Of a DNA stretch of 64,000 nt, positions 3,481 to 52,830 are shown piece after piece (positions within the stretch are counted from its first letter, which is position 1; each line of letters opens with the position of its first letter). Below the pieces are notes generated by a model. The model did no database searches. It was not told the DNA's origin and worked only from the letters and a program-made list of their open reading frames with translations. Position numbers and translations under genes: made by a program. Source of the stretch: Lunularia cruciata (taxonomy: Eukaryota; Streptophyta; Marchantiopsida; Lunulariales; Lunulariaceae); NCBI GenBank assembly GCA_948567375.1, contig OX419758.1, forward strand, positions 5,399,001 to 5,463,000, given 5' to 3'.

Positions 3481-5000
3481 GTATCTTCATCTTCTCCTCT
3501 TCTAGGCTGATGGGAATTACTTGTACTTTGGTAAGCAATTATTCTCTTGATCAACCTCCTTTTTTTTCCTCCTTCTTCTTCAATTTTTCTTATACCTTGT
3601 TGAGTTGAAGATTTATTGTGGTGTGATAGTCATTATATTATACCTCCATTATTACCGCACTCACATTAGGTGCAATCACTTGAATGCTAGCTACTTCTTC
3701 ATCTCAAGCTCTCACTCAACCGGTCTTCAAACTCCTGCTGCTTTTGATTTTGCTCAAGCCAAAGGACCCTCAATTCCCCTTGTAGCCTCTTGATTTTTTT
3801 CCTCTTGCTCCTTCCACTTTGCAAGAAGCAAAGTAGTCTATGTCTTCACCTTGAATTTCTCTTGCACTAGAGCATTGCATTCTTGGCTCCCATCTTATAC
3901 CAATTCCATAACTTCTCCCTTTCCTCCTTCACCTTGGCTTGCTCTACCCATATTGAGTAGGAATTCTTGTGCAGCTTTTGGACAAGGGAGGTGTGTAGTT
4001 GGTAATATCTTGGTAGGCGTCTTGGTATATTGGTAAAATCTGCTCCATCAATTCCAAGACTAGCCCCACCAAATGTATCAAAAACTTTGATACTTCTAGT
4101 ATTGAGGCTTTGCTCTCTTGAAATTTGAAGAGTAGTATATGCTCCATTGCTAGTGTTGCCTCCAATGGCTATTTGTCTTTGTCTTTGATGTCAATCCTAT
4201 TTTCTATTTGACCTTTAAGTGGCATAGGTTCTTCTTCTACTACCTACTTCTTCCTCTCCAAAGGCCTTCCTTCTACCTTCTCAATCTTTGCTTGTTCTTT
4301 GCCCTTGAGTAATTAACCTTTTTCTTTGGGTACTTGATCTTTGGCTTTTTTTGTTCTTTTTGCTTAGGCTTTTCTTCTTACTTGCCCTTTGTACCTAAAG
4401 GTCCCATTTCTTCTTATTTGTTTATTTGGTGTGGACTACACTTCTAGCCAAATGTCTTCTTCCTTATTTGATTGGGGCTGCTGAAGTTCTTTACTACTTG
4501 ATTCCTTTTTCTTTTGTGCAGATTATGCTCTTTATGCTACACATTTTCCTCTTCCTCTATTGCAGACTATCCAACAAATGTGAAAGAGTGTTCCCTTTCT
4601 TTTTCTCCTTAATTGTAAGTATCTTTAGCCTTATTTTCCAAATATACATTGATCACATGAATGTTCTTCCTAGCACTCTTCACCTTTGTTTTCCATCTTG
4701 GCAAGTGCTGCTATTTTCTTCTAGTTAAAGCTATGGGTCTTACTTGCTTCTTCTACAAACACAAATTTACTTATTTTTTCATATTCCTCATCAAACACTT
4801 TGTATTTTTGGTACATTGCCTTCCTTCCAACTATGAACTCAAAGTACTCCTTTGGATGGAAGTAACCAAGAACTTCTTCTTTCATCCTTGGTAAGGAGAT
4901 TCACTCCCAAATATATATGCAACATAAATAGGGATAGATGAATCACTTCTCCACCTTCTATCACCTTCTCCACCTCCTACCTTCTATCTCTACTTTCTAT
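3480..5000 (-). pseudogene. Relic of a Lys/Glu-rich reading frame, probably retroelement-derived
   Basis: On the minus strand, several short frames read as lysine- and glutamate-rich, coiled-coil-like protein with frequent stops. The clearest piece is 3944-4165, a hydrophobic/heptad-like stretch ending in LPIYQDAYQDITNY. The plus strand is correspondingly rich in CTTCTTCC. The style resembles the extra coiled-coil frame found in the family B insertion at 16867-20587, but I see no clear sequence match. No catalytic motif is visible and no function can be assigned. It could equally be a decayed host gene. Confidence 0.3.
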
Positions 5001-5604
5001 CACCTTCCACACATGTCCTAAGTCAAAGTAGAAAACATGTACACCCAATCAAATAGCTACCCTTTGTGCATGAATTCAAAGAAGATTGCTTGGCTAGTGT
5101 GGAGGTAGGTCATTCTCTTTGACTTGAATAACTACATGACCACGTCAAAAATAACCCTTTGAGTAGAATCATGTTAACTTTGTACTCTCCACCCATTATT
5201 AGTCTTTGTTTCATTAAATAAGGCCTTTAAAACCTTCTCCAAGTTCTTGTCTAGTTGATGCCATTGGGTTTCTAGGATAATCATTCTTGGTGGGGAATTT
5301 TTTTATGGCAAGGACCTCTCTCCATTGCTCCTCGGTCCAAGAAAACAACACTTTTTTCTAAGGTTGCTACTATTGTGATCCTTATCTCTCTAATTTCTTA
5401 GATTGTCCATGGGTGGTTCAATTCATAGTTCTATCGCAAGAAGCACAATTTCTTGCTACAAATCACATTTTCTATACAATGCAATGCCCATTTTCTTACA
5501 ACTTATGGTCTAAGAATTATCTTAGGCACTCTCTTAGGGTACCTTGATCCTCTTACCATGTTGCTTCTCTCTTTGGACAAATGCAAAGAGAAATTTCCAC
5601 CACA

Positions 5605-5936: not shown

Positions 5937-6980
5937 CAAAAACATGCCACATAGCTAGCAAGGAGTAATAATGCAGATGATATTCTCTAAGCGCAGACCC
6001 TCATTCTAACATTCTATCAAAGCACCTTTCATTTGTCCCATACTCCCTTATCTATGTTGGTGTCACAAACATGTCACCATTTCTAGAGATCAAGTTGCCT
6101 TGGTAGTTGTAGACTTAAATGTAGTGGTGGTTAGAAGATTTGATTTAAAATGAGGAGTGCAACATCGGATGAAGTTATCATGGAAGCGGATGACTTAAAT
6201 TCAAGTGGAGGTTGATATTTTTCAATTAAAATTAGGACTGAATCATCTTGTAATTTTCAAGTGGATATGAAGGAACATAAAGACCATTAACACATATTCT
6301 CTTTATCATCAAATTGATGGGGTCTTCCTATCATTATTTTTCTCTACACGGTTGCCTTTTTCTCTTTATCATCAAATTGGCCATTCTTATTTACCAAAGC
6401 TTGTAATGCCTTAGTCTATGACAAATTTGGCCTCTCAACTGCTTTTTGTTGATGCATGTATGCGGTAAAATCTCACCCCAACTCTCCTTGGGATGATTAC
6501 CTTGCACATTGATCACTCCATGGACAAAACTAGTAGCTATACTCCTATAGAAAATTTCATGTTGATTTCACCAAAGTTTTTATGGAGTTTATTTCCAACT
6601 ACCAAAAGACCAAAATCCTTGCAAAATAGACCCAGGTCTATTTGGATATAAGTGCTAATTTGGTGTGACAACCTCTCAACACTCTTTTTTCCAAATAAAA
6701 AGATTTAGAAATCATTGGAATACCCATAGTTCATAGAATTATTATACTTGAAGATATATTCAAAGAATTTAGAGACTGTAGAATTCATCATGACTATATG
6801 AAAATTATTGTGAATTTACACAAATTTTAACAATCTTAAATCTACTTCCTAACTATCATAATTGCCAAATGAGTTCTTCTTCTTGAAAAACCTGAAATCT
6901 TGGTCACTCAATCAATTCAATACATTCAAGAAAATTGAATCTCAAAACCTTCTCTCAATCTCCAATCTTGTTTCACTCTC
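5937..6980. other. No recognisable feature
   Basis: AT-rich DNA with short frames only, and no motif that I can tie to a family. Confidence 0.5.
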
Positions 6981-11094: not shown

Positions 11095-13819
11095 GTTGGT
11101 GACGTCCTCGTCGCAAGTGAAGCTTTGAATTCCTTGATGGCCATTTGTGCATTTTGGAGGTGGGGAAAGAGGTTCCCATGTGGCATCATGAAGGGGATAC
11201 CCTTTCCAAAGGACCTTGTACTCCATATGTTGGTGACGGCCTCATTGAATATGGCAATGTGCAAGGATACGATCAACTTTGTACTCCTCATGATCATTGA
11301 TAGGGATAGGAAGAGTAGGAGGTTGGACTCGAGAGGAAAAGGAAGAGGGGTTAGGAACAAAGGGTTTCAACCTGAAAACATGAAAGATAGGATGGATACG
11401 CATGTGACAAGGCAAGGCAAGTCAATAAGCAACATGAGAGACAATTTGGGTGATATCAAAGGGTCCTATCTAATTAGGGGCAAGTTTACAAACTTGGGTA
11501 TCAAGTGGGAGAGGGAGGTTACTAGAGGATAGCATGACTTTATCACCAACTTCAAAGGTGAGATCACGACAATGGTGGTCCGCATATTGTTTTTGGCAAT
11601 TCTGAGCAACAAGGAGGTGAGACTTGGCTTGTTGGAGAGATTGGGATATAGTGGTCAAGAATGTGGAAGTATGAGGAACCTGCGAGGGAGGGGAAGCAAG
11701 AAGAGAATCTGGAACAAGTGGATCTTGGCCAAAATTGAGAAAGAAAGGAGAAAATTTGGTGCTTGCCTGTTTGGAATTGTTGTAGATAAATTCTGTAGCT
11801 ACAAGACATTCATCCCAGTTGGTATGGTGGACATTGACAAAGGCCCGCAACATATCCTCCAATGTACGATTTGCACATTTGGTTTGTCCATCAGTTTGAG
11901 GATGATAGACAATGGACAAAGCAAGCTTGGTGCCGAGTATCTGGAAGAGTGCTTGCCAAAACTTCTTGGTAAATCAAGGATCACGGTCGGAGATGAGTAC
12001 ACATGGCATCCCATGATGCTTGAAGACATTGTCGAAGTAGATTTATTCTAAGGTTAGAGCATCCACGGTATCACAGGTTGGTGCCAAGTGGATTTGGTTA
12101 CTAAGCTTATCCACAAACACCACGATTGCAGTGTGTCCTTGTTTTGTCTTTGGCAAGGATGTGATAAGATCCAAGCTCACATGCTCTCAGTAAGCGGATG
12201 GAATAGTGAGTGGTTGAAGGAGTCCACGCGGCTTCTGGTTGCTAGCCTTGTTACATTGGTAGCTCTCACATGATTGGATAAATTCTCAAACATCTTGTGT
12301 CATGTTGGGCCACCAACATTGACGTTGGAGGGTACCCAAGGTCTTGTCCACACCCATGTGACCAGCAATGGGTAAATCATGGGCTTCTTGAAGGTGTACA
12401 AGTTGAAGATCACTTTAAGCTGAAACATAGATTCGATCCTCATGGAATAAAAGGCACTCCTTGATGGAGAAGGTGTTGTACTCCTTATTGCATGCCGTAA
12501 GGCAACCATGTACCATTTGGAAGAAGAAATCTTGGTGTAGAGCTAACTGAAACTTGTTTTGGACCTTGGAGTCAATTGACACCGTTGAAATTGCCGTTGT
12601 GATGAGAGGAAGAGACTTCAAATCAGGTCATCATGATAAAGCATCAAGGATGACATGGAACCAACCTGGTTTGTACTCAAGTTTGATGTCATACAGTTGG
12701 AGTTGTTCCTCCTATCAATGATGTCCACTCTTCATGTGTTCCAATTGGAAGGTATGCAACAATGGTTTGTGATCAATTTGCATGATCACTTGTTTCCTCA
12801 AGAGGTAATACCTCCATACCTTGGTGGTGTATACCATTGCAAGTTGTTCTCAATCTTGAGTAGAGTAGTTTTGTTCAGCCATATTGAGTTGGCAAGACAC
12901 AAAGGCAATGGGATGGAATCCATCTAGGAATTCTTGTTGCAACACGGCTCCAATTGCAAAGTTAGAAGCATCAAAATCAACCACATAGGGTAGTTGAGGA
13001 TCATATGGTTGACAAATAGGTCTTGAAGACACCATATGCTTTAACTTTTGGAATGCTTCTTCATGCTTGGTGGTCCATTAGAAGCTTGAGTTCTTTCCCA
13101 AGAGGTCAATCAATGGTGCAGCCACATGAGCATAATAATGGATAAACCGTCAGTAAAAACTGGCCAATCCATTGAATGCCCGTACTTCTGTAGCATCCTT
13201 TGAGGTAGACCAATCAGTAATGGCCTTGATTATCTCTTCTTCCATCTTGATCCCCTTTGATGAGATCTTGTGACCAAAGAAGGTAACCTCCTTCTGCCAA
13301 AAGGCACACTTTGACTTCTTGTAGTAAAATTTCCATTGTCATAGTCGTCTTAGGACTTCTTGCACATGATTCACGTGTTCCACCTTTGTCTTGCTATAGA
13401 TTAAGATATCATCCAAGAACACCACCACGGACTGATCCAATAGTCCATCCAACACCCGATGCATGTGATCCATGAAGATTGTTGGAGCATTAATGAGTCC
13501 GAAAGGTAGAACTCTCCACTCAAAATGCCCATACTTGGTGCAAAAGGCAGTCTTTTGCACATCCTCTCTATCAATAGGAATTTGCCAATAGCCGCAACAA
13601 AGATCCAGCTTGAAAAAGTAGCATGCTCCACTTAGTTGATCAAGCAAGTCATCAATCCAAGGCAAGGGATGTGCATTCTTCATGGTTTGCTTATTCAGCC
13701 CACAATAATCAATACAGAAACGAAGTCCTCCATCCTTCTTTGGAACAAATAGTACCGGTGCTCCACAAGGAGAGGTATTATATCGTCTGAAGTCCTTCTC
13801 CAACAACTCCATAAGTGTA
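11095..13819 (-). pseudogene. Second pol copy: RT-RNase H-integrase-chromodomain (broken)
   Basis: This is the 3' part of a chromovirus pol, joined in direct orientation behind a first pol copy. 13339-13818 carries reverse transcriptase (FCIDYCGLNKQT, KLDL, VVFLDDILIYS). 12850-13035 carries the RNase H start (VVDFDASNFAIGAV). The integrase zinc finger and core follow (12600-11900), then the region with YHPQTDGQT (11470-11919). The reading frame then continues through GPFDI to a chromodomain at about 11310-11130 (EYKVDRIL, YKVLWKGYP, DATWEPL), which would target integration to modified chromatin. Stops and frame changes break it in several places. The expected catalytic Glu of the integrase (QTE) is Lys (QTK) at 11878-11880. 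Confidence 0.9.
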
Positions 13820-13844
13820 CATTGTCGAGTATCCAATGAGTATT
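13820..13844. other. Junction with about 25 bp of filler between the two pol copies
   Basis: Homology to the RT coding region ends near 13819 (CATAAGTGT). Homology to the integrase region, as at 12160-12190, begins near 13845 (TGAGATCCATGCTCACATG). The bases between match neither copy. Such filler is typical of end-joining repair or template switching. Confidence 0.65.
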
Positions 13845-16385
13845 GATGAGATCCATGCTCACATGCTCCCAGCAAGCGGATGTAATGGTGAGTGGTTGAA
13901 GGAGTCCACTCGGCTTCTGGTTGCTGGCCTTGTTATGTTGGCAACTCTCACATGATTGGACAAAGTCTTGAACATCTTGTGTCATGTTGGGCCACCACTA
14001 TTGGTGTTGGAGGGTGCCCAAGGTCTTGTCCACTCCCATGTGACCAGCTATGGTAAATCATGGGCTTCTTGAAGGCGCACAAGTCCAAGATCACCTTTGG
14101 CTGGAACATAGATCTGGTCTGCATGGAATAAAAGGCCTTCCTTGAAGGAGAAGGTGTTGTACTCCTTGTCGCATGCTGTCAGACAACCGTGTACCATTTG
14201 GAAGAAGGGATCTTGTTGTAGAGCTGATTGAAACTCATTATGGACCTTAGGGTCAATGGACACCATTGTAATTGCCGCCGTGATGAGAGGTAGAGCCTTC
14301 AAATCATGTCGTTGTGATAGAGCATCAGGGATGACATGGAACCAACCTGGTTTGTACTCAAGTTTGATGTCAAACAATTGGAGTTGCTCTTCCCATCGAT
14401 GATGTCGACTCTTCATGTACTCCAAGTGTAAGGTCAAAAACAATGGCTTGTGATCCGTTCGCATGATCACTTGTTTCCCCAAGAGATAATGCCTCCATAC
14501 CTTGGTGGCATATACCATTGCAAGTTGTTCCCGATCTCGAGCAGAGTAATTTCTTTCAGCTATATTTAGTTGGCGAGACACAAAAGCAATAAGATGTAGT
14601 CCATCTGGAAATTCTTGTTGCAACACAACTCCAATTGCAAAGTTAGAAGCATCAAAATCAACCACACAAGGTAGTTGAGGATCATATGGTTGAAGAATAG
14701 ATCTTGAAGACACCATATGCTTTAACTTCTGGAATGCTTCTTCATGCTTGGTGGTCCACTGGAAGCTCAAGTTCTTTCCCAAGAGGTCAGTCAATGGTGC
14801 AGCCATGTGAGCATAATAGTGGATGAACCGTCGGTAAACACTGGCCAATCCATTGAATGCTCGTACTTTTGTAGCATCCTTCAGGATAGGCCAATTAATA
14901 ATGGCCTTGATCTTCTCTTCTTCCATCTTGATCCCCTCTAATGAGATCGTATGACCCAAGAAGGTAACCTCTTTCTGCCAAAAAGCACACTTTGACTTCT
15001 TGCAATAAAATTTCCACTGTCGTAGTCGTCTTAGGACTTCTTGCACATGATTCATGTGTTCTGCCTCTGTCTTGCTATAGATTAGGATATCATCTAAGAA
15101 CACCACCACGGACCGATCCAATAGTCCCTCCAACACCCGATACATCTAATCCATGAAGACTGTTGGAGCATTAGTGAGTCCGAAAGGTAGAACTCTCCAC
15201 TCAAAATGTCTATACCTTGTGCGAAAGGCAATCTTTTGCATGTCCTCTCCTTCAATAGGAATTTGCCAATAGCCGCTACGAAGATCCAGCTTGGAAAAGT
15301 AGCATGCTCCACTTAGTTGATCAAGGAGGTCATCAATCCGAGGCAAGGGATATGCATTCTTCATGGTTTGCTTATTGAGTCCATGGTAATCAATACAGAA
15401 ACGAAGTCCTCCATCCTTCTTTGGAACAAATAGTACCGATGCTCCCCAAGGAGAGGTACTATGTTGTATGAAATCCTTCTCCAATAACTCCATAAGTGTT
15501 GTTTGCAACTCCTCCAACTCCTTTGGTGAAAGCCAATAGATTGGTCTACTCATTGGAGTACCCCCTGGCAATAACTCGATCTTGAAGTGCATACCTCGAT
15601 TGGAGGGTAATCCCTTTGGCAAATCATCCAGAAACACATCTGCAAACTCCTGAACTATCCGATCAACCATTGGTTGATGAGGCTCTTGGGCCTCCTGAGA
15701 TTGTTCTTGTGAAATCGGCTTGACCCACACCATAAATACAAACTTATCTTCCTCCAAAGCTTGCTCTATGGCTGCTTCATTAACAAACTTCCCTTCTAGG
15801 GACTCATCTCTCTTCAAAGCTTGCTCCATGGTTGCCTTCTTGGCAAACTTCTCATCTTGGGACTCATCTCCCTTCCAGATTTGCTCTATGGCTACCTTCT
15901 CAACAAACTTCCCATCTTGGGACTGACTATTCTTAGGCGTCTTACTCAAAGGTGCCAGGCAACCTAATTGGAAATTTCTACCTTGGTGTTGTACTTGAAT
16001 TTGTCGTAGGGTCCAATTGAATTCAACCTTATGACGTTCAAGCCAAGGTAGACCTAGAATGATATCATAGTGTAGAGGTGCCACTACAAACCTCATACAC
16101 TCCAAATACTCCTTCCCAATCTTGAAGGTAATAGGATGCGAGGTGCGGAATGTTGAACCCTTTCTACCATCCGCCATCATCAAACTACTTCCAAACACTA
16201 GCTTGATAGGAATACCCAATTCTTTTACTATTTGCATAGACATGCAATTCTTTGAACTTCCAGAATCAACCAAAATCCTACAATGCCAATTAGATATCAT
16301 ACCTTGCAAGTGAAGCAAACTTGCATAGGTCAAGCCTTCAATCTCATTGGAACTAATCAAGCTCCGAGTAGGCGGCTCAAAATCT
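13845..16385 (-). pseudogene. First pol copy: protease-RT-RNase H-integrase zinc finger
   Basis: This is the best-preserved pol. A frame at 15146-16360 carries the retropepsin ([11 protein letters not shown], Asp at 16265-16267) and the N-terminal half of RT ([27 protein letters not shown]). A TAG at 15146-15148 interrupts it, replacing the Gln of FMDQM. The same frame resumes at 15145-14048 with the RT catalytic LDD (VVFLDDILIYS, about 15089-15094), then RNase H (VVDFDASNFAIG, RTDHKPLF). A short frame at 13985-13860 gives the integrase zinc-finger cysteines (CESC) and the start of the core (WEHVSMDLI), then stops at the duplication junction. A single nonsense change in more than 750 codons suggests a fairly recent death. 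Confidence 0.92.
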
Positions 16386-16386
16386 C

Positions 16387-16866
16387 CTAATGGGATTCTT
16401 TGTTTCCGTGATCATTCTGTTCCACAAACTCCATTTGGGCAACTTGTCGAGGTCGCCCATTCTTAAGTGGACATTCAGCAATGAGATGTCCAACTTGGCG
16501 ACAATAAAAGCAACCTATATTTTGTAGTAATCTTTCTCTATCTGTTGTGCCAAGTGGTCTTTGTTGGATAGCATCAATCTCCATTGGTACCGGTTCTTCC
16601 ACTCGTGCGTAGTGTACTGGTAGGCTTTGTGTAGCTCCAGGTTGAGACCAAGTTGTCGCAACCAAGGAATCAAAATGCTCAGCCAATTGCATGGCTTCTT
16701 CTACACTTTGTGGCTCCCGCATGGTCACCTCCAATTTGGTTTGTGACTTCAATCCTTGCACAAATCGATCCAGAACTTCACCTTCTTGGATATATGGAAT
16801 TTGCATGATGATGTTCTAAAATTGTGTGATGTAGCTTCTCACTGAGCAAATCTGCCTCAACTCCAC
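16387..16866 (-). pseudogene. gag, C-terminal part with zinc knuckle (split by insertion)
   Basis: 16806-16387 encodes 139 residues of a Ty3/gypsy gag: a capsid C-terminal region (EGEVLDRFVQGLK, SVEEAMQLAEHFD) and a nucleocapsid knuckle CFYCRQVGHLIAECP, of the form CX2CX4HX4C. The frame stops at 16387 and pol continues in a different frame within about 25 bases, with [17 protein letters not shown] sequence. A frameshift or a small indel therefore separates gag and pol. The N-terminal part of gag lies at 20588-20900, beyond the 3.7-kb insertion. Confidence 0.9.
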
Positions 16867-39752: not shown

Positions 39753-41516
39753 TGTGAAAACCCAACAAATATCACTTTTGTGGTAATCTAGTTAGTGAAG
39801 TTCATTCCTATAGAGATACAAGTCAAAAATATCCAAATACAAAGTAAAATGACCGCAATGTAGTTCTTCTTGATTGCAACTTTAATCTCTTAGGTAGAAA
39901 CCACACCCAAAAGAGAGTAACAACCACTAGATTCCAGTCTTCTCACAAATCAACACTTCATAATCACAATACTATCCAATCTTTCCAAACCTTTGATTGT
40001 AATGATTCAGATTCTTCTAGAGATGACTATTTCATTGCAAAATGATTTTGCCTCAGAATTGTGTTCCACCCCTCCACTAAATGCACAACTTCCTTGATCA
40101 AAATTGCTTTACATCAACCTTGTGCTACACAAATGCAGAATACTACCAACACTACAATTCCTCTCAGATCTATCAAGGCATTACATTGATTGCACTTCAC
40201 TCAAGATCATACACAAAATGAACATCATGGTTGTGGAATCCAACATCCAACAAGCACACTGACTTGCACTTCAAATTTCTCCAAACACTCACAAACACAA
40301 ACACAAGATTGATACTTGGAATTAAGCTCAAGCAACAAGCATTGAAAAACATCACTTCACTTTATTTATCTTCAAAAATTATAAATATTTAATAATATAA
40401 CACTGCAAATACCTCCCTTAAATAGTAGAACAATAGATAATTACTAACAACTACACCGTTTTAGAACAACTCTTCCAACCTATTGATCCAAAATGGCAAT
40501 GCACCTCTTCATATCTGTCTCTTTCAATCTCAAAATTGTTACTACTCCAATCCGATATCAACCTCAACTTCAAGCTTCCAAACCTGAAGATCCTTCTATC
40601 ACTTCTCCTTCTTTGGGTCCTTCTTCTTCTGCTAATGCCTTCTTCTCACTATTTCTACTACTTCTTCACACTGAACTACAATTGAACTCACATCTAAACT
40701 ATCTACTTCTTTATCTTCTGACCCACCTTTCTCTAATGTCTCAAATAACTGACCCGAAGACTCTACTGTCTGATCTTGCACTCGGGCTCATCACGACAAC
40801 TATTTTCTCTTCTAATTCTATCATATATTTAATCAAGATTGAAATTAAAATCATGGGTATCCTAACTATCTCTTCTTTCTATGTCTTAACTATTTCAGAC
40901 ACTTCAGATATCTAACCTGAAGACTCTTGCATCCGATGTCTGACTACCTTGGATTGGGTCACCTTTGCCCTGAGGCAAAGTCTCTTGACCGGAAGTCATG
41001 TAAGTTGTGTAAACCCAAAGGCACATAAGTCCGAAGTCGTATAGACCCAAAATCACATAGACCTGAAGATCACCCTAACACCCTAATCACCCTAACCTGA
41101 AGTCACTCAACTACTCCATATATCTACTATAGAAACTTCAAATGCTTATAACTTTTGTTGTAGACCTCCAAACTCTGCAATTTTGGTGAAAATGGAAAAC
41201 CTTGAAGAAGACGCTTTCAGTAAAATATAGCACACACAATTAGGACACGTGGTCACTAAGATACAGGCCCTGCAGTCATCCTGACCTGCACTTTCATTCC
41301 AATACAAAGTAACCCTCCTTCTGGTCCAATCTTCCTTTGGGTCTGCCCTCCGTCGGGTCCAATCCAAGTTCTTCTTCCTTTGACACGAAGTAAATTTCCT
41401 CGGGTTGGATCAAAACATATGTTTCTCCTCGTTTCATCTCTATTTGGGTTCAATTCGTCTTCAATAATGCGCTTCTTCTTCAAAATTTGTCTAAAATGAA
41501 AAATGTGTGTACCACA
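39753..41516 (-). mobile_element. Family B solo element, copy 3 (1.76 kb)
   Basis: TGTGAAAACCCAAC to TGTGTACCACA, flanked by TTGGA (39748-39752) and TTGTA (41517-41521), a 5-bp target duplication with one change. It shares the left ~800 bp and the right end with the other two family B insertions, with a different, decayed middle. It lies between FLAGGAI and the RNase H of the copia element. Confidence 0.88.
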
Positions 41517-41521
41517 TTGTA

Positions 41522-42477
41522 CAAATTAGATGCAAAAGTTGGTTGCTTTAAATAGTGTTGAAGTTGAGTACATGGCTTTAACCAAAGCAAACACTAAAGC
41601 AATTTGGATAAGACTTCTACTTTTAGACCTTGGTTATCCTCAAAAGATAACACAACTCCTGTTATTATACAGATCTTCAACAAGAACAAGAGTGGTATTG
41701 CTTCTATGAGCAAGAATCATGACACGACAAAGTATATTGATATTAATATCATTTTATTAAAGATCAATTTCAGTGGAGAAATAGGCATCAACTATTTACC
41801 TACTAAAGATATTTGTGCTAATATTTTGATAAAGGATTACCTAAGGACTGATTTAGCTTATAATGAGAATGTGGATTATGGGAAGTCTACCGGTGGACTT
41901 TGCTTCCTCCTCGCAGGAGGAGCAGTAAGCTAGGCAAGTAAGAAGCAGAAGTTAGTTGCTTTATCTAGTACTGAAGCTCAGTACATGGCTTTAACGATAG
42001 CCAACACTGAATAAGATTTGGATAAGATTGTCTACTCTAGATAAGATGTCTACTTATCCTATTTGGATAAGATTGTCTACAATTTGGATAAGATGTCTAC
42101 TTTCAGATATTGATTATCAAGTGTATTGATATTCAATATCATTTGGATAATACGTCTACTTTCACATATTGATTATCTCTGGACAAAACAGATCTTGTTT
42201 TGTAATAACAAGAGTAATATTGTTATTGTGTAGAAGCAAGAATCATGATAGGACCAAGTGTATTGATATTCAATGTCACTTTAATAAAATGATTGATTGA
42301 TTTTTAATAAAATCAATTACTCACAGAAGAAATCAGCATCAACTATTTACCTACGGAAGAAGAAGATATATGTGCTGATGTTTGATTTTTACCTAAAAGA
42401 TTACCTAAACGACTTTATCAAAAGCACACTGCTACATTAGGAATAGGAGGATACACAAATTCTCAATTGAGTGGAAA
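41522..42477 (+). pseudogene. Copia RNase H, partly duplicated
   Basis: 41522-41870 reads as a decayed RNase H (AEYMALTKANTKAIW, then the KYIDINIILLK block). At about 41876 the linker GKSTGGLCFLLAGGAVS recurs, followed by KKQKLVALSSTEAQYMAL and a second, more scrambled RNase H ending QKHTATLGI near 42450. The segment from linker to RNase H is therefore present twice. Around 42030-42180 the second copy also contains short repeats of ATTTGGATAAGA-TGTCTAC. Confidence 0.75.
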
Positions 42478-42839: not shown

Positions 42840-44763
42840 CTTCTCTCGACCTGAAATTTGTGAATGTACAAATGTTTACAATAGTTATCGGAAATCTTTT
42901 CTAAATTAATCTTAAGATTTTTTGATTGCTTTGTAAGGCTGTGGACATATATGCTTAGATGAAAATGGAGATCAGAGCTGTTCCAAAAGCTCCTAGACTG
43001 ACGAAAATAAAAGCTTCAGTGCCTTTTGACACCTTTGCGCAGATTAGAGGTACGACAGCAATAGTGAGAAGGTTACCTGCAAACATCACGATAGCCATAC
43101 ATCGTATCTTCGGAGCGTATTTCCCGATGCCAGAGTATAAGATTTCATGGAGAAATCGGACGATGAAAATGAGGAATACTGATTTCAATACCTGCTACCA
43201 CGCAACATCATCAAAAGGATTTCAGGCGCATAAAACTTGGAGGAGTCAGAAAAAGTAGCTGGGCACAAAGTGAGGAAGAAGAATCTGATGTCATGAACAA
43301 GATCGAGCCAGAATAATTACCCCTCAGTGCTTACTGAATGAGCTGTAAGAACTCTCACAATCCAATTCTAGTTGACAATTTCCTCCTTCCTCTTATGGGT
43401 TAAGGGAGGAAGAAAGCGATCAAAGATCGTAGAAGCAATATCGTTTCCATCACAGAGCTTGTCAAGGTTGAGAAGTGAGAGTTTATCTCAGAACTGCCGG
43501 GATGACCTGCAACTTGGATGAGATCAACTAATGAAGGTGGTCTGAAATTACTGATCCTGAAGTTCAACAGGGGAAATAATTCCACTTCCAAGGAGGAAAA
43601 TTGAGTTACAACCAGATGTCGTCTGATGGCTCACTTTGATTGCTTGGAGGTAGGTAAAGGGTTATTCTTCAAGATCTTACACGTACTGTTGGTGCACAGT
43701 TTGGTCATCTTGGTCGTTGGACGAAGGCTCGGCGACAGAAAGTAGTTGCTGTTATCTGAATGAGAAAAGGGAACTCTCCAAAAATAAATTTTACTACTTG
43801 GCACAAAGGTAATGTTGCGGAGAGGAAGAAAAAATACGCAAAGCAACTACGGAGATAGTTCGGCCATCCTACCGATTTCATCTGGTGGGATTGTAACGCC
43901 TCTGAACCACGGCACGTGATCATCTATTTTCATAGCCTGAAAGAGCCACGTTGAAGAGAGCTGGAAATGGAGGCCGCGAAGAGGAGACTCGGACTCGTGA
44001 CGATCATTGCGGATATCAAATTCTTCCGGTCATACCCCGTCTTTGTCTCTACAGTCGGAAATCCTCAGCCTCCCAACGGCCTTGGAGCGCATGTTTGCGA
44101 CTTCTTCTGAGATCTCCCCGGAACTTTCACCCTGCTGCGAGTGATTTATGAGCTCTGGGTTTGTGTCAGTGGACGCATGGCGGTACTCTGTCCTCTCTAA
44201 CGAGAAACAGACTGTTCCCAAGGGCATAGAGCAAACGTACGGGAGAAACACTGTGAAGAAACTTCCTTGGCCACGGCCCCTCACCAAAGAGAAGACAAAA
44301 TGTCTCAAGAATGTCCAGCAAATCATGGGGGTCTAGCAAACTGAGATGTACTGTTAAGAGGCTTTTCCAGATATGATGGTAGAGAAATAAAATACACGTC
44401 CCTGACCTTTTCTCTCACTGAGCGGATGATTGATCGCCTCCAAATGGAGGTCGCATAGCGTCGATCCTCTGAAGCCCAAACCTGACAACAGGAGGGCAAA
44501 AACAGTGACACATTAGGTGGCGTAGACGACTCCCAATCTGCATCTGGTATGGCTGATATAACAATTAGAAGGTACCTGTAACTAAAGAAAAAAGGCTACC
44601 GCATAGGAAAAATGAAGGAGGGGAAGACCCCATCAAGCCGTACAAGGGAGACAAAAAAGGTAACATGGGGCTAAGCCCCAATAGAGTCTGTATGAGAAAT
44701 CTGCCCTACCGCACCTAAGATATCCGAGCTATGCAAGTCGTACGATCTACACACAACTGGATC
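42840..44763. other. More GC-balanced, apparently low-copy segment, no complete gene
   Basis: Base composition and CpG content differ from the surrounding repeats, and I find no match elsewhere in the window. Minus-strand frames at 42955-43188, 43400-43591, 43631-43846 and 44030-44326 could be exons or decayed exons of one gene. Only the first has a recognisable flavour. I cannot define splice sites with confidence. Confidence 0.4.
42955..43188 (-). pseudogene. Possible C-terminal fragment of a membrane transporter (MFS-like)
   Basis: The 77-residue frame holds two hydrophobic stretches separated by a short charged turn: IRCMAIVMFAGNLLTIAVV and IFVSLGAFGTALISIFI. A segment of the form KYAPKIRCMA precedes them. 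The pattern resembles the last two membrane helices of a major-facilitator sugar or organic-ion carrier (YP-KIR-A, helix 11, helix 12), but no PETKG-type tail follows before the stop. Neighbouring frames on this strand do not join into an obvious transporter. It could be a chance frame. Confidence 0.3.
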
Positions 44764-45089
44764 ATCCGAAGAAACATCACCTAATGTGATTCTCTCCTAT
44801 GGATTGCACCAACCACTGCCCTCTACAGAGCAATGGACACACGCTGTCTAAAGTAAGCTACAAAGTATGAGAGTGAGAGTGGTACCCCCTGACGCCTAAC
44901 ATGATAAGCTCTCGCGCACTCCCTGACAAATGTGTCAAATGCCGTGTCCATCGCTCCATATAACTCCAAGGCTAGAGGAACAAAGAGGTGACCTCGCTGC
45001 ATGCCCCTATACTTGGAGACCTTGCGACCTGCTGCTGCACTCGCCGCCCATCCAGGGGGATGGGTAATCACTCCCTCCAAAACTGTATC

Positions 45090-45335
45090 TCGCGTAGGGT
45101 CCGTGACCACGACATCCGCTACTGTCACCTGATCATCTCGGACCAAGTATAAGTCTGCCCTGACACGTGTCGTCTGCAACGCATACGAACACTCACTCCA
45201 AGCCAAGTATCCACTCTCTCGCGCCATAGCAAACACTATGTCTCTAATGGCATCATGGGTAGCTATCCTCTGTCCTCCAAAAGGACACCGTGTCATGTGG
45301 ACCGCCGCTGCATCTAGTGTAGAACCACACTCACA
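45090..45335 (-). other. CCHC knuckle and restriction-like endonuclease core
   Basis: The knuckle begins at 45335 (CECGSTLDAAAVHMTRC). It is followed by THDAIRDIVF, a helix, RVRADLYLV (the PD-like Asp near 45153-45155) and VTVADVVVTD (second acidic position near 45114-45116). This is the order of the RLE domain in R2-like elements, which nicks the target to prime reverse transcription. Confidence 0.7.
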
Positions 45336-46325
45336 AGTGAGTAGTGAAGATGCAGATGGGTGGACCAAACCTAGGCAAAACCTCATTGTTGTAGAGAAAG
45401 TAGCCGGTGCAAGTCGGAAAGCCCTAATGCATGGTTGAGCTAGGATCCACGAGCCTGCACCCTTGCCGGAGCAAGAGCGTAGACGTGCTCTAGTAGCCTG
45501 AGGAATGGACGAGTCAACTAAGAGAGAATGTAACGTATGCTCACACTGTCGCTCCATCAAGGAAGACTGTAGACCTCTAGTCCAATCTGACGATAGTGAA
45601 GCAAACGGTGGAAAACCCTCTCATGCTCGTGGGGATAGACTATCTCTCGTCTGCCGCAATAACACCTGGAGAGAAAAGGATCCTCCCTCCACCTCTGTCA
45701 CATAAGTCTCCAAAACCGGCCTATCAGCAACCACAAAACGAGAGGCAAGTAGGGGTGCCAAGAGAGCCCAACTACCCAAAAATGCTATAGGTGCCATCTC
45801 CTCCATAGAAAGCAAGCCAACCCCACCACATGAGATCAGTAGAGCCGTCTGTCTACGTGCCAAATCCCCTGTCACACACTCAAAAGTCCCTGGTCCAATA
45901 ATATCACCAAAGACTCCCATAATCCTCCTATCAAATGCTCTCAGACGTGATAGGAAGGACGATGAGGGAGGAACTATACGGATGAGGTAGGATGGTCAAC
46001 GAGCAATACTAGAAGAGAGTATACCAAATGCCACCTATGGATCTCCTAGTAATGGAAGGTCATCCACATGGAGAACATCCTCTGCAAGGGCAGCGTCCAA
46101 GAAGCGTGTGACAAAATCCTCCGATCCTACTGGCACTCCAAGAACACGAAGTCCATATGTGGATGTGATACACCCCTCTGGAAGCTCAAGGTGGGGAGGG
46201 ATACCTAAAGAGGACCATGCCCTACACTTTGACACCTTGACTCTCAAGCCTACTAGATGTAGCTTGGTAGTCAAGTAGTCAAAGGCCTGCCTAATCTGAT
46301 CTACATGGCCTACGATGTGTGTATC

Positions 46326-46328
46326 ATT
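46326..46328 (-). other. Mutated RT active site (ADD to AND)
   Basis: The codon is AAT on the minus strand, where GAT would give the catalytic Asp of the (F/Y)-ADD or L-ADD box. A single G to A change explains it, the type expected from methylcytosine or general deamination. Confidence 0.75.
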
Positions 46329-47757
46329 TGCCAAGGAGGGAAATACACAACCTGGCATGGCCAAAGTAGTAGACATGAGAGCTCTAAAGTGAGCCATGGC
46401 AAATAAGGGCCCTCCCAAAGGATCTCCCTAACGTGTACAAACAGCTGACTCCAAGACGGTGACTCCCTCTTGTGAACCACCATGCTGGTAGTAAAGGGAA
46501 CAAGAGAGCCATAAAAAGACCGCACAAAGGAATGAGACTCGCCAAGGATCCACCAGCCTCCCTAAGCTCTCTAAAGATAGATACACGTGAGACACTATTA
46601 AAAGCATTCTCAACATCCACCTGTAGGACGACCCACTCCGGATGGATATCTAGGAGTGCTCTAATGCTTAAATATATAGCCTCACATCCTCCAGGTGTAG
46701 CTACTCCAAACTGATGTGGACTAAGGTGTTGTCGAAAGTGAGAACGATGCTGAAGGACAATGGTACGACTGAACAAATGCAAAAAGAGCTCTCCAATAGC
46801 AATCGGTCTAATGCCTCCCGTGTCCTTCTCGATTGCGAGAAGTCGACTAGCACCTAAGACCCGACTAACAGACATAGGAATATCTCCTCTTGCTACTGCT
46901 GCAGCTACCTGAAACAACTCGGTAAAACCACTAGAAGGATCATCTTCCTGGAAGCAATCTCTAAGGTGCTCATAAACCATCCCTGACAAGCCTCCTAAGG
47001 AAAGGCGAGGGGCAGTGCACAATGCTTGTGCAAATAGCGACCTATCAAGACATAAAGGCTGCTCAGGCTGATAATCTAAGACCTCTAGTGGTAGTCCCTC
47101 TACTGCTATAGGATGCAATGAGCGTAGGGAAGAGATGGTCTCATCAGTAGGACTCGCTATAGACAAAGGGTGTAGCGCTCGTGCTACTCTACTAAACTCT
47201 CCCGCTTGACCCAATGTCCTACATCGTCGTAATCGAGTGGAATATGTGGTATCCTATGGCGATGCTTGTCTCCTAAATCGTGTAGCCCTAACAGACTCCT
47301 CCTGAAGGGCTGCACAATCCCCCGCTCGGAATCGACAAAATCTAGCCGCCACCTCTCTATGCCCCGCACATCCCCCTCTAGCATAACGAAGACACCATCG
47401 AGGGAGTAGGAGGAATAGGAACCATGCTAACTTGTCCAAGGGATCACGTGCCAAACGATCCAGTGGTAGGCAAAAAGCCTATCTAGCCTCATCATGGAGT
47501 GTGCAGGGTACCCTACGGAATAGACGTGGACATGGAAAACTAGTCTCAAATAACCCCAAAATGCAACCCACCTGAGAAGCTAACCACTCTCATGACTCGA
47601 TCGGTATCCCTGGAACGATCAATGAAGGTATAGAAGAAGTGTGCGTAATCTCGAGTGTCACTACTATCGATGTGGTCGCTCATCTCACATGGGCATTGCA
47701 AGTGGTCCAATCATATTCCTTGTGCATCCTTCCCACATGGGTCTTTACCCCTTGCGA

Positions 47758-47808
47758 GGTAAAGCATCGGTGACACACCGGGCATGGTGTATCTCGACTC
47801 GCTCTAGG
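47758..47808 (-). other. N-terminal C2H2 zinc finger of the non-LTR element
   Basis: Cys-Cys-His-His spacing CX2C-X11-HX4H, about 20 residues from the proposed start. In R2-type proteins such fingers contact the DNA target. Only one is present here. Confidence 0.75.
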
Positions 47809-48300
47809 CGACCCCACTTGGGAAGGTGTAGCCATGGCTAGCACAAGAATAGTGATAGTAACACATGATACTCCTCTCCATATCTCCCTATATTTGCAAA
47901 ACCACAACCCCTCACATCCCAACTCACATAAGAAAACAATCTCTCCAAACCCTAAAATCTATAAACTCTCATAACTTTCAATTTCCATCTCTAAAATTTT
48001 CAAATTAAATTCCAATGGAACTTAATCATGAAAACCCAGAGATTAGAAATGAAAATTCACAACCCATCACTCTCAACCCTAAAAAAGCTAAAAATCTTCA
48101 TAACTTTCTACTCCATTCTCCATAGTCTTCAATCTAGGTGCCAATGGAACCGGAATTGAAAAACAAAGAAAATAGACTATTCACTCGAAGGCTACATGCT
48201 AGAGAGCATTCACAAATTATCAAAATTGTCTCACGTCTCTCCCTCTCCTCTCCCGTCTCCACACTCTCCACACTCTCCCGCAGCTCCTTCGCACCAAAAC

Positions 48301-51300
48301 CTGTAACATAGAAAATGGAAGAGAGTTATATAGATCAATATTTTACGTGTCAAACAATTAGAAGAAATATCCAATGCATGAGTGAACGTATATGTCAGCC
48401 TTCATTGTTGTCATATGCCTTCCTTTCTAGAATTTGGTTCCCGGTAGAGGGATGCAATGCACTAATTTTGGCAATGTTACCATGTTATTCTCGCCATTGA
48501 GAACTAAAGATGTACAATACCGCACGTATGGGACGAAATAGAGGATGTTTACAAATTTCAAGTTCTAGATATTACCAAGTGAAAAATGAGAGGGGAGATA
48601 CCATAGTTCACCAAAGCATGGTCTCCGGGACACAAGTCCTGCTCGAATATATATAGGTAGAGAAGAAGTAAACAAATATGTTGAGTCTCTCTTCTCTCGT
48701 CACAGTAGTTTTAAAGTGGTGACTAATGGGGATTAAAGAATAAACTCTGACTAAAAATTAACTCTTCCGCGTACACTAACCGCTAGGAATATTAGTTTGT
48801 GTACTTCATCAACACTAGAGGTGACAAGCTTACTAGGAACCCGTGGCTCACTAAGGAGCCGGCCATGGAGCTCAAGAACGTTCCGAGAAAGGGCAAGTGC
48901 ACAGCCTCCGTCGCCCTTTTCTCACTAAAATCAAGGTTTCCCGAAAGGAAGATGCCCAAAACTGCAATCAACCTGTGTAAGCTATCATCTCCACAACTTT
49001 CACAAATAAGAGATGTTTTGCAAATCTTTCTCAAATGACATGGCTGGTGCTCCTTCCCCTATACCAGCAGCAGCGGCCGCGCTGAAAATTCATTTCTGCT
49101 TCCATAGCTGAGATAGATTCCTTTCTCTAGAGAGCCAACGAACAGTCAAGTTCCTGCTAAACTTTAGACAATCTCGTTGTTTTTCCTTGAGAAGTGGATG
49201 AAGTAAGCATGGTGAAAGATGAATTCGTGGCCTCATCTAAGAGAAAGGCTCATCAATGAAATGGGTTACCAGAAATAGGTAGCATTGTCCTTCATTTTTT
49301 TCCCATGTTGAATAAACCTTTTGCATTGGACATCAGTGTTTGGCGGGTGGTTCAAATTGAACTCTTAACAACAGCTTGCTACAAAAGATCATCACCACTG
49401 TTGCACGAAGATGGTTAAGTACTGCCTGCTGTTGCTGTCAACAACTAAGCCCAATTTGTGTTGTGTATTAAACTACTGCAGTCTAGGAAATGGGCATCTG
49501 AACGACCGTAGACCACGGTACACCCAACCCTCGTATGCGTGTACAGTACACTTCCGCTGAGTGGATATCGCAGCAGGACGACAGTACAACGCTATAGTGT
49601 GGATAGGTTCATGTAAGTCGTTAAGAAAATGACGAGTTTGGAAAATTGAATTCTTGTAATGCAAATTACGAAGTCACGAAAGCCTTGAAAATGCAAGCCA
49701 CGAACAGAACTCGAGCGTCTGCATATTCGTTTACGGAATGCTTGAGGAGTAATTGTCATGCATACGGAGACGCAAATTGAAGAACACCACTATCAGCAGC
49801 AAGTCGAACTCTTCAGGAACTTGGTCTTGCCCGTGTTTCACTTTTGCTGTTTCGTCTTCTAGAAATCCCAAAAATTTACTAGAACACCAATCAACAGATG
49901 ACAACTCCAACCAAGTGATAACGGCCACCATCTGCAACACAGATTAAAAGGTCATGAATTTATACCTGAATGTAAGGATATGTTTGGCTCTTGGCATTGT
50001 GAGCGGTTGGCTGAACCTGTATTACACTTCTGTAGCACTTGACTGCGTGACCTCCAGAAATACGCTTTGGCACGATTCGACTTGATTCTTGCCTACGCAA
50101 ATGTGCTAAGACAGTATCATGTTGTAGGACATCTCGATTCGTCGCGATAAGTTATAAAATTTTAAACGTACGTGTCAAGAGAATAAGCCTGCAGTTTACG
50201 AGGTTTCCAACGTGGCATATTTGTAGAACCTTAGTGAGAACTAGACATAAGTGGTCCCTGATTCTACGCACTCTACGTGACGCTAAGAGAACTTAATAAG
50301 TTGATCAGATCTGATCTTATGCTTGTCCTATCATTTATCGATCTGTACATCACTAATGGCACTGAAGTAGAAGCCAATTTGGCATCCTCACGCTAACAGT
50401 TCTTAAAAGCGAACAACGAACCTGTTTGCTTACGGCTCATTGCAAATTTCGAATAGATTATATTCCTTGTCACCAGGAGCCCAAAAGAGAAAACTTTCAT
50501 GTGCTCTACGGCGAGGACCTCAGCTACCACATGCACAATCCACTCCCCGGCCTCCTGATCAATGACGCCTCCTCTCGTGATCACAGGGACGATAAACGAA
50601 GACCAGGGACATCAGATCAAGCATCACATGTTGTCAAGTTCCAATCCCTAATTGCCATTGATACAGAGCTTCTTGCAGTGAGTGAATGCAGAATAACAAG
50701 ATCATGATTGCTGTTTCTGAAGTTTTAAAGATTGGTCATTCTGTATATTGCAATGTCAGGTCTTGCTTCTTATGGGCAATATAACTGCTGACGAAGTGCC
50801 TCATCCTGATCGAAACACTGAGGAGCTCCATGAGGGTGAGGCATGTGACCCCGGGGTTGTTATACTCTCTCTTTCCTACTTATCTGTGCGACATCAACCA
50901 GGTCAGCGAAGGGTTACAACATGAAATTCTCAGTTTCCAGACTTTCCGGGGAGTTCCAGGCGCCTCTCGATTGCTTAGCAGAATCATATATGGGAAGAAC
51001 AGTTTCGTGAAGTCTCTGTAACATAGACGAGAAGTTACATTTTGCCCGAATTGCTGTTGTGCATTTCTTTTATGCCTGCATGCCATTGTCTGACCTCTGC
51101 ACATAAAATTCTGGCCAGCTGAAATGCCGTTTACAACGGTCCTGCTCAGAACCGTTTATTGGAGAGCCCACTGCAGATGACGTTTGAACCCCCATAAAAT
51201 ATTGCAACACCCATGTACAGAGATTCCTCAATGTACTTATGGCTCTAGCCGACTTGACTCGGTTTCATTCATCAGCCGCCACAACCTATCTCATTCCTAC

Positions 51301-51509
51301 AAGCGGAGGAAACATGCTGGCGATGACGAAAAGTTTGACGACTTTCAGATAGTTCAAGAAGTTCAGATATTTATCTGAACTTCCCATAAAGCCTCAAGAA
51401 CGCGACACGCGAAGGATGGTCCCCACAAGTTGCAAACGATAAAAATATTATCGGGCTAATGGGGTTTAAAATAGCATGGGAATGAGAATCTGTCACCCAG
51501 GTCTACGAG
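48301..51509. other. Low-copy-looking segment, no confident gene
   Basis: The sequence is less AT-biased than the retroelement regions and not repeated elsewhere here. Frames of 60-95 codons exist on both strands (for example 48792-49034 minus with two hydrophobic stretches, and 50426-50707 plus). None shows a family motif or a convincing exon structure. It may be the continuation of the segment at 42840-44763, separated by the non-LTR element. Confidence 0.4.
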
Positions 51510-52830
51510 CATTCGAGGAAACATCAGCTAATGTGATTATTATTTTTTATGGATAATATAAATTAATTCTATAAAAGAAATCTGTCAAATATTCTGTTTT
51601 TCTATTGGAGTACCCTAAGGAGCTTAACGTATGTGATTATTTTCTTATAGATTGTAAACTACTGCTCCTTTTGGACAAACCTATATAAAGTAAGCTACAA
51701 TTTATAGAGCTTTCATGTAAACCTTGACAAATATCTCGAATGGTGAATCCATAACTCTAACTCTAATACTAGAGGGAGAAATAGATAAACTCAATGCATA
51801 CCATGTTAACTCATTCAAAGGATCATATGTCTATTGATTGAGTAGCAAGTAAAAAACCTATTTAGCTTTATCATGTTATGCACGAGAAAGTCTATGAATA
51901 AACATTAACATAGAAAACTAGTTTGAAAGCCATAAATACATAAAAGCCATAAAATACAACTTGCCTACCGACGATGCTAATCATTCTTACTCCTTGATCG
52001 ATACATCCCAAAATTATAGAAGTAACTATCAATATAAATATATCTAATCCTAAATGCTAGCGAAATCAATATGATTACACTCTTCAAGTGTCTAACATAC
52101 GTAGTCCAATCTACAAATCTCAAGTATGTAACATAAATAGTCTAATTATGTTCTTTATGCATTTTTTCGATATTGTATTTACTCATCGCAAGTTAAAAGT
52201 CTATGCAAGACAAAGAGTCTATGACATACTGAATATGATGTATCTTGTACCATTCTAAGCGGCTTCACATGCGTAAATGAAACCAAAACTAACATAAAAA
52301 TAATGATAATAACAAAAGCATACTCCATCTTGTATCTCTCCATAATTACAAAAGCACAACCTTTTACAGCCAATCTCAAAATAAATAGACAAATATTACT
52401 TCTCAAATCTCAAAAAACTATAAAATCTTTATCTTCTATTTCTCATCTCTGTAATTTATAAATTAACGTCAAATATAATCATAGTATGAAAATCAAATTA
52501 TTTAAAATAAAAAATTTATAATCCATAATTTCCATACTTAAATAATCACTTAAAACACTAAAACTCTAAATACATTCTTTCTTATTACGTAATTTTCTAT
52601 TACCTTCAATTTATATATCAATCAAACCTAAATTAGAAAACAGAAAACATTTTATATTTACTTTTAATCTAATATACACTTGGAAATTGAGGAATCCCTC
52701 TCACTTTCTCTTCTCCCTTTCGCTTCCTCTCCTGATGACCCAAGCTCTAGGAACAAGGATTGTGAACAGTAATCGCCTCCCCTCCTGATGGCCCAAGCCC
52801 TATGAACAAGGTAGTGAACATTAGGCTCTG
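51510..52830 (-). mobile_element. Old, deleted relic of the same non-LTR element
   Basis: Co-linear with the copy at 44764-48300: its left end (GAGGAAACATCAGCTAATGTGATT), the 3' coding end (AAAGTAAGCTACAATTTATAGAG against AAAGTAAGCTACAAAGTATGAG), then a jump to the 5' coding part (CAAGTAAAAAACCTATTTAGC against GGCAAAAAGCCTATCTAGC), the zinc-finger region and the 5' UTR. Most of RT is missing. C and G have been replaced by T and A throughout, CpG being nearly absent. Confidence 0.8.

Follow-up and report, generated by a model that had tools for sequence, protein, structure and literature searches.

The window analysed here is a 64,000-nt stretch of Lunularia cruciata contig OX419758.1, and the feature under study is a retrotransposon without long terminal repeats (non-LTR; a long interspersed nuclear element, LINE) on its minus strand at 44588..48295. 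Alignment to an intact genomic copy, L039, identifies it as a near full-length, dead copy of a 3.73-kb element with a probable restriction-like endonuclease (RLE). The two copies agree at 3557 of 3713 positions when aligned locally and at 3569 of the 3700 aligned positions when aligned globally; another local alignment puts the start of the window copy at 48284. This dead copy belongs to a non-LTR family that is young, abundant and recently active. An earlier note, made from the letters of this DNA alone, had proposed an R2-like, RLE-type element at 44764..48300. It was right in substance and is confirmed in part: its 5′ limit near 48300 stands, and the 3′ end lies 176 nt farther, at 44588, the end of the open reading frame (ORF), the 3′ untranslated region (UTR) and a terminal run of six T having been missed.

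Remains of a single 1,055-codon ORF, mapped from intact L039, occupy 44671..47835 (minus strand). Nine in-frame premature stops and three 1-nt deletions split it over at least five ORFs, so that the one coding region of about 1000 codons described earlier is absent from the window and is found, at 1,055 codons, in other copies. In the window copy, the reverse transcriptase (RT) motifs VVLQVDVENAF (46632-46600) and GDPLGGPLFA (within 46430-46398) lie in different frames, and the catalytic ADD box at 46311..46337, SLADDTHIV in L039, has become SLANDTHIV. A short 3′ UTR (44588..44670, minus strand) ends in T6. Comparison of the flanks revealed a target-site duplication, GTTACAGGT on the minus strand, at 48299..48307 on the 5′ side and, beyond a 5-nt linker, at 44574..44582 on the 3′ side.

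Domain organization of the element protein

The intact ORF encodes, in order, a C2H2-like finger, an RT, a Cys/His knuckle and a probable C-terminal RLE, all on the minus strand of the window. The N-terminal finger (C-X2-C-X11-H-X4-H, residues 18-38, 47722..47784) matches Pfam zf-C2H2_4 at E 0.026 and 15.6 bits, below the cut-off of 27. The RT domain spans residues 335-569 (46131..46833); Pfam RVT_1 recognizes it in the intact copy at 6.5e-15, with 204 of 205 profile positions covered, and in the window piece at 4.1e-6 (27.1 bits vs a cut-off of 29.6). An R2 RT profile likewise finds the element RT at 2.4e-10, where the best shuffle reached 2.6.

A Pfam search of the 1,055-residue intact protein at E <= 10 returned no family of apurinic endonucleases (APE) and no RNase H, in agreement with the earlier observation that no such endonuclease stands in front. 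This result bears directly on the most conventional identity for the element, an ordinary APE LINE of the L1 or RTE type whose endonuclease was missed or truncated, which would accord with a 2022 review that names only L1 and RTE among land-plant LINEs (PMC9033089). We consider that identity very improbable: the roughly 330 residues N-terminal to the RT carry no APE match in an ORF that is intact, the same library readily detects the APE domain of the host's own APE LINE (Exo_endo_phos 1.4e-12), and the C-terminus of the element is RLE-like.

The C-terminal region is likely, though not proven, to be a restriction-like endonuclease of the PD-(D/E)XK type. It follows a Cys/His knuckle of the form CX1CX9HX3C (residues 835-851, 45285..45335), and its candidate core at 45009..45260 is colinear with the RLE region of R2. 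The core comprises a conserved His (from 45260), the R-A-D-L of RADLYL (45161-45144), the V-A-D-V of VADVVV (45122-45105) and KVSKY (45029-45009), with the aspartates and the lysine in place. When three R2 RLE regions were made into a profile, it picked out residues 552-626 of the 770-residue ORF of copy L010 at E 0.009, against 1.7 for the best of 2,000 shuffles, and hhalign places the same region on the R2 RLE (E 6e-4, probability 28%). A single-sequence AlphaFold model of the window RLE part has the secondary structure helix-strand-strand-strand, the order stated for RLEs in PMC5678591, at low confidence (mean predicted local distance difference test score 43), too poor a model for a fold search. 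The RLE-like core named in the earlier note is thus borne out as a putative assignment.

Copies and insertion across the genome

The 565.8-Mb assembly (74 contigs) was searched with a 245-residue C-terminal piece of the element protein. The 150 places scored, out of 16,088 first-look candidates, were all 94-100% identical to the query and were located on eight large contigs. By eye, 34 of the 150 held a stop-free match in a frame that stays open for 1,069 codons or more, and 20 of those 34 were fetched for comparison. An uninterrupted 1,055-codon ORF is present in all 20, because the copies were chosen for long open frames. In 17 of the 19 other copies the stretch shared with L039 begins at its position 1749, small differences in start included, and ends near 5477, at 98.5-99.6% identity; L045 and L048 begin 370-420 nt later. 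Just ahead of the 5′ end common to the copies, additional sequence of two kinds was seen, ..CTGGTCAGGA and ..GGCGGTCCGGCTGGAGGA, one in L042, L057, L058 and L040 and the other in L047, L053, L054 and L055, perhaps marking two subfamilies.

Each of the 20 copies deviates from the majority sequence at between 3 and 27 of 3,165 positions. Among differences common to at least two copies, 13 of 28 change amino acids, a depletion relative to the neutral expectation (p 0.011), and 74 of the 110 private differences do so, in line with neutrality (p 0.47). Since the shared changes are replacement-poor and the private ones neutral, the master lineage was under selection and individual copies decay neutrally.

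Such a family could in principle have entered the assembly as contamination from an animal, fungal or protist genome, and it is from hosts other than land plants that RLE LINEs are best known (PMC4640811). The chance of this is close to negligible: copies lie on all eight chromosome-size contigs (60-85 Mb each) of a 566-Mb assembly that includes a plastome contig, and the 58 exact RLE sites found on contig C1 are spread evenly along it (Kolmogorov-Smirnov p 0.25). The plastome contig (C74, 112.5 kb) carries rbcL and a full-length match to PF00142 (1.1e-112), best read as chlL, which bears out the impression of a plant-like genome. Plastomes of flowering plants are not known to carry chlL, so the host is no angiosperm; residues of rbcL, a tRNA-like stretch behind that gene and the eight large chromosomes point to a probable bryophyte.

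Copy number was estimated by counting 26-mers genome-wide with up to 2 mismatches and with reversed-pattern controls. The RT 26-mer occurred 1,835 times, the RLE-core 26-mer 1,796 times and the 3′-UTR 26-mer 9,298 times; each reversed control gave 0. Combined with the whole-length alignment to L039, the RT and RLE counts show that the motifs first picked out by eye (the C2H2 finger, VVLQVDVENAF, GDPLGGPLFA, the knuckle, RADLYL and VADVVV), all present at the mapped positions, are not chance resemblances. Between the RT and RLE 26-mers, 1.5 kb apart, the count stays flat, and at the 3′ end it jumps fivefold. The length distribution is two-sided, with copies very short or long and little between.

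Matches to nothing but the 3′ end number 23 in the fetched sequence and the window together, L012 and L020 being identical. One of them lies in the window at 6314..6361 (plus strand), a 48-nt insertion 88% identical to the element's 3′ end and directly flanked on both sides by CTCTTTATCATCAAA, a perfect 15-nt duplication. Short interspersed nuclear elements (SINEs) with a shared tail were weighed as the source of such copies and are less favoured, although a SINE may be among them: the starts vary (element positions 3563-3680 in most of the 23 rows), and simple 5′ truncation is therefore preferred. In L050, positions 989-1216 hold a tandem array of three units of about 70 nt, built from the 3′ end of the element together with a short spacer. 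Element-matching bases make up 5,043 of 73,720 in the flanks of the 20 copies, 0 of 27,864 at eight other RT loci and 80 of 60,249 in the rest of the window.

To look for target-site duplications in 21 copies, the 20 fetched and the one in the window, 70 nt of flank on the 5′ side was compared with 40 nt on the 3′ side, and the longest exact match was recorded. A match of at least 9 nt was present in 11 of the 21 copies and in 6 of 420 mismatched pairs (Fisher p 1e-12), and the duplications measure 9-16 nt. They fit target-primed reverse transcription (TPRT) at dispersed sites. A fixed target is absent at 62 distinct 3′ junctions, and a strict target site was rejected on this basis; the comparison of flanks suggested in the earlier note has thereby yielded no target consensus. 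At the 47 of these 62 junctions with 4-6 T, the first non-T base is C in 72% and the next is T in 68%, a C-T preference that may come either from the target or from the template. The 3′ UTR is predicted to fold no more stably than its shuffles (z -0.67).

These features suggest a cycle in which the protein would bind element RNA close to the short 3′ end, as the anatomy of the element implies, and the RLE would nick chromosomal DNA at loosely chosen sites. From the nick, the RT would copy the RNA by TPRT, and a staggered second cut would produce target-site duplications of about 9-16 nt. Frequent halting of the RT within the first 50-170 nt would leave the 3′-tail copies; otherwise the enzyme would tend to run through and give long ones. 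The traces that bear on endonuclease activity and TPRT are the duplications and the 5′-truncated 3′-end copies, and the family may still be active.

Taken together, the data point to a young, abundant non-LTR family in which one protein joins a C2H2-like finger, a LINE RT, a Cys/His knuckle and a PD-(D/E)XK-type RLE, and which would insert by TPRT at loosely chosen sites. We place the probability of this reading at roughly 0.85. Several observations weigh against it. In the protein, the knuckle departs from the usual spacing, CX2-3CX7-8HX4C (PMC5678591), so that the "CCHC knuckle" of the earlier note holds as a Cys/His knuckle and not in its spacing. Where the PD motif has proline, the element has alanine (PD to AD), and inspection by eye found no GXW motif after the fourth strand. 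The RLE has no Pfam match, and phmmer with the window RLE piece alone returned no R2 and, as best matches, glutaminase at E 0.46. The R2 segments behind the RLE profile were those already aligned to the element protein, a mild circularity. At the DNA level, 10 of the 21 copies have no duplication of at least 9 nt, several copies have linkers of up to 16 nt between element and duplication, and stops are underrepresented in the selection counts, the 20 copies having been picked for open frames.

Relation to known LINEs

In a phmmer search of the PDB with the element protein, R2 proteins ranked first (8.8e-9, 1.4e-7 and 2.2e-7) and no L1 appeared at E <= 10. A second stretch, over the knuckle and RLE, is colinear with R2 and is not significant alone (i-Evalue 66-83). 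The ranking was rejected as a basis for R2 membership. The RT of the host APE LINE, in the same kind of search, also matches R2 first, at 6.4e-24 (human L1, 1.4e-17), more strongly than the element's own 8.8e-9; the R2-first ranking is therefore uninformative on clade. An RT tree of seven sequences (the element, three R2s, human L1, the host APE LINE and a group II RT) has deep-node supports of 50-67. It sets the element outside a weakly supported group of R2 and the APE LINE (support 67), itself joined at 50. On these supports and the shared ranking, neither "R2-like" as a clade name nor "early-branching", both used in the earlier note, is upheld.

Membership of the R2 clade would nonetheless explain why the best PDB matches are R2s and why the element RT is 25-28% identical to R2s and about 21% to L1, the APE LINE and the group II RT. 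Dispersal would be no obstacle, as R2-like elements that are not site-specific, the BLAG elements, are described from the cockroach Blattella germanica (PMC7650587). The host APE LINE result and the tree tell against such membership, as do the atypical knuckle spacing and altered PD motif of the element, and we judge it unlikely. Compared with R2 (R2Tg, 9dou; R2Bm, 8gh6, 9nl2 and 9nl3), the element shares a single ORF, the finger-RT-knuckle-RLE order and a colinear sequence match. It differs in its RT, knuckle and PD motif, in its T6 tail and in dispersed insertion with 9-16-nt duplications. The rDNA target of R2 was not seen either: the flanks of the 20 inspected copies are all different, and Rfam has no match in the window or in three copies scanned with their flanks (L039, L042 and L055), which upholds the claim that the flanks are not rDNA and gives no sign of 28S insertion. 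The 5′ end of R2 carries a ribozyme like that of hepatitis delta virus; at the 5′ end of the element, the same three copies gave no Rfam match to one at E <= 1.

Other RLE-bearing groups resemble the element in part. The BLAG elements, compared by description only, are RLE-type LINEs scattered outside rDNA, in an animal host. Utopia, an RLE-type LINE of the NeSL group with a wide eukaryotic distribution (Amoebozoa, SAR and Opisthokonta; PMC4640811), targets U2 snRNA genes, whereas no Rfam family was found in the window or beside the three scanned copies of the element; oomycete Utopia also has an RNase H domain, of which none was found in the element ORF. Dualen/RandI brings an RLE into a LINE of the green lineage. 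A relative of this group that lost its APE would suit the occurrence of Dualen in green algae (PMC8226300) and its possession of both APE and RLE (PMC3636483, PMC8226300). The intact ORF holds no APE or RNase H at E <= 10, Dualen being compared by description only, and we regard this descent as improbable, about on a par with R2 membership. Plant L1 and RTE belong to the same retrotransposition class and probably follow the same TPRT scheme (PMC9033089), but use an APE and end in (A)n or (TTG)n (PMC3747384), unlike the element with its T6 tail.

From its sequence, the element is best assigned to the broad kind of RLE-bearing LINEs, with no clade within it. Tentatively, and at clearly less than even odds, it may represent a deep RLE-only lineage outside R2, NeSL/Utopia, R4, Hero, CRE and Dualen that lives on in a bryophyte-like land plant as its main dispersed LINE, with the host's APE LINE confined to one centromere-like cluster per chromosome. 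Among the papers listed by full-text searches of the open-access literature, none reports an RLE LINE in a land plant, a scope outside which Repbase and most subscription papers lie. Within it, and alongside PMC9033089, the description "rarely described plant lineage" agrees with what we found. Protein and RT-motif searches of the viral_contigs collection returned no relatives.

If the RLE assignment is true, the LINEs of land plants extend beyond L1 and RTE, contrary to the list in PMC9033089, and the RLE kind was either retained in the green lineage as far as a non-flowering plant or acquired horizontally. With its intact ORFs and about 1,800 bodies, the family would also offer a workable model for RLE LINEs free of a single target site. 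The T-run at the 3′ end bears on the mobilisation of plant SINEs that end in poly(T), for which the responsible LINEs are an open question in PMC3747384; should the deep-lineage reading be true, a T6-ended RNA would be the kind of partner LINE missing for these SINEs.

Host APE LINEs and other features of the window

Of the 568 candidates from a genome search for APE domains, the best 146 were scored. The eight large contigs hold 111 of these scored matches, and 105 of the 111 are gathered into a single stretch per contig, 1.2 Mb long at most: C1 46.28-46.50, C2 33.19-34.29, C6 25.25-25.64, C7 46.54-46.88, C8 39.42-39.66, C10 20.29-20.76, C11 25.27-26.45 and C12 25.25-25.61 Mb. A further 35 scored matches lie on small contigs. 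The APE LINE is thus clustered at one site per large contig, whereas the RLE LINE is dispersed; since only the best candidates were scored, the clustering may describe one family and not all APE LINEs. The fetched copy L061 is such an APE-RT LINE (RVT_1 1.8e-28, Exo_endo_phos 1.4e-12). Clustering of this sort resembles that of the centromeric Zepp elements of Coccomyxa and Chlamydomonas (PMC8226300).

Elsewhere in the window, a 32-nt match to the end of the element's ORF lies outside the main copy at 51507-51538 and is perhaps an old fragment. By eye, gypsy-type ORFs resembling pol and gag were noted on the minus strand at 13339-16806, and repeats resembling Ty1/copia at 41500-42400, within a region of about 40500-42400.

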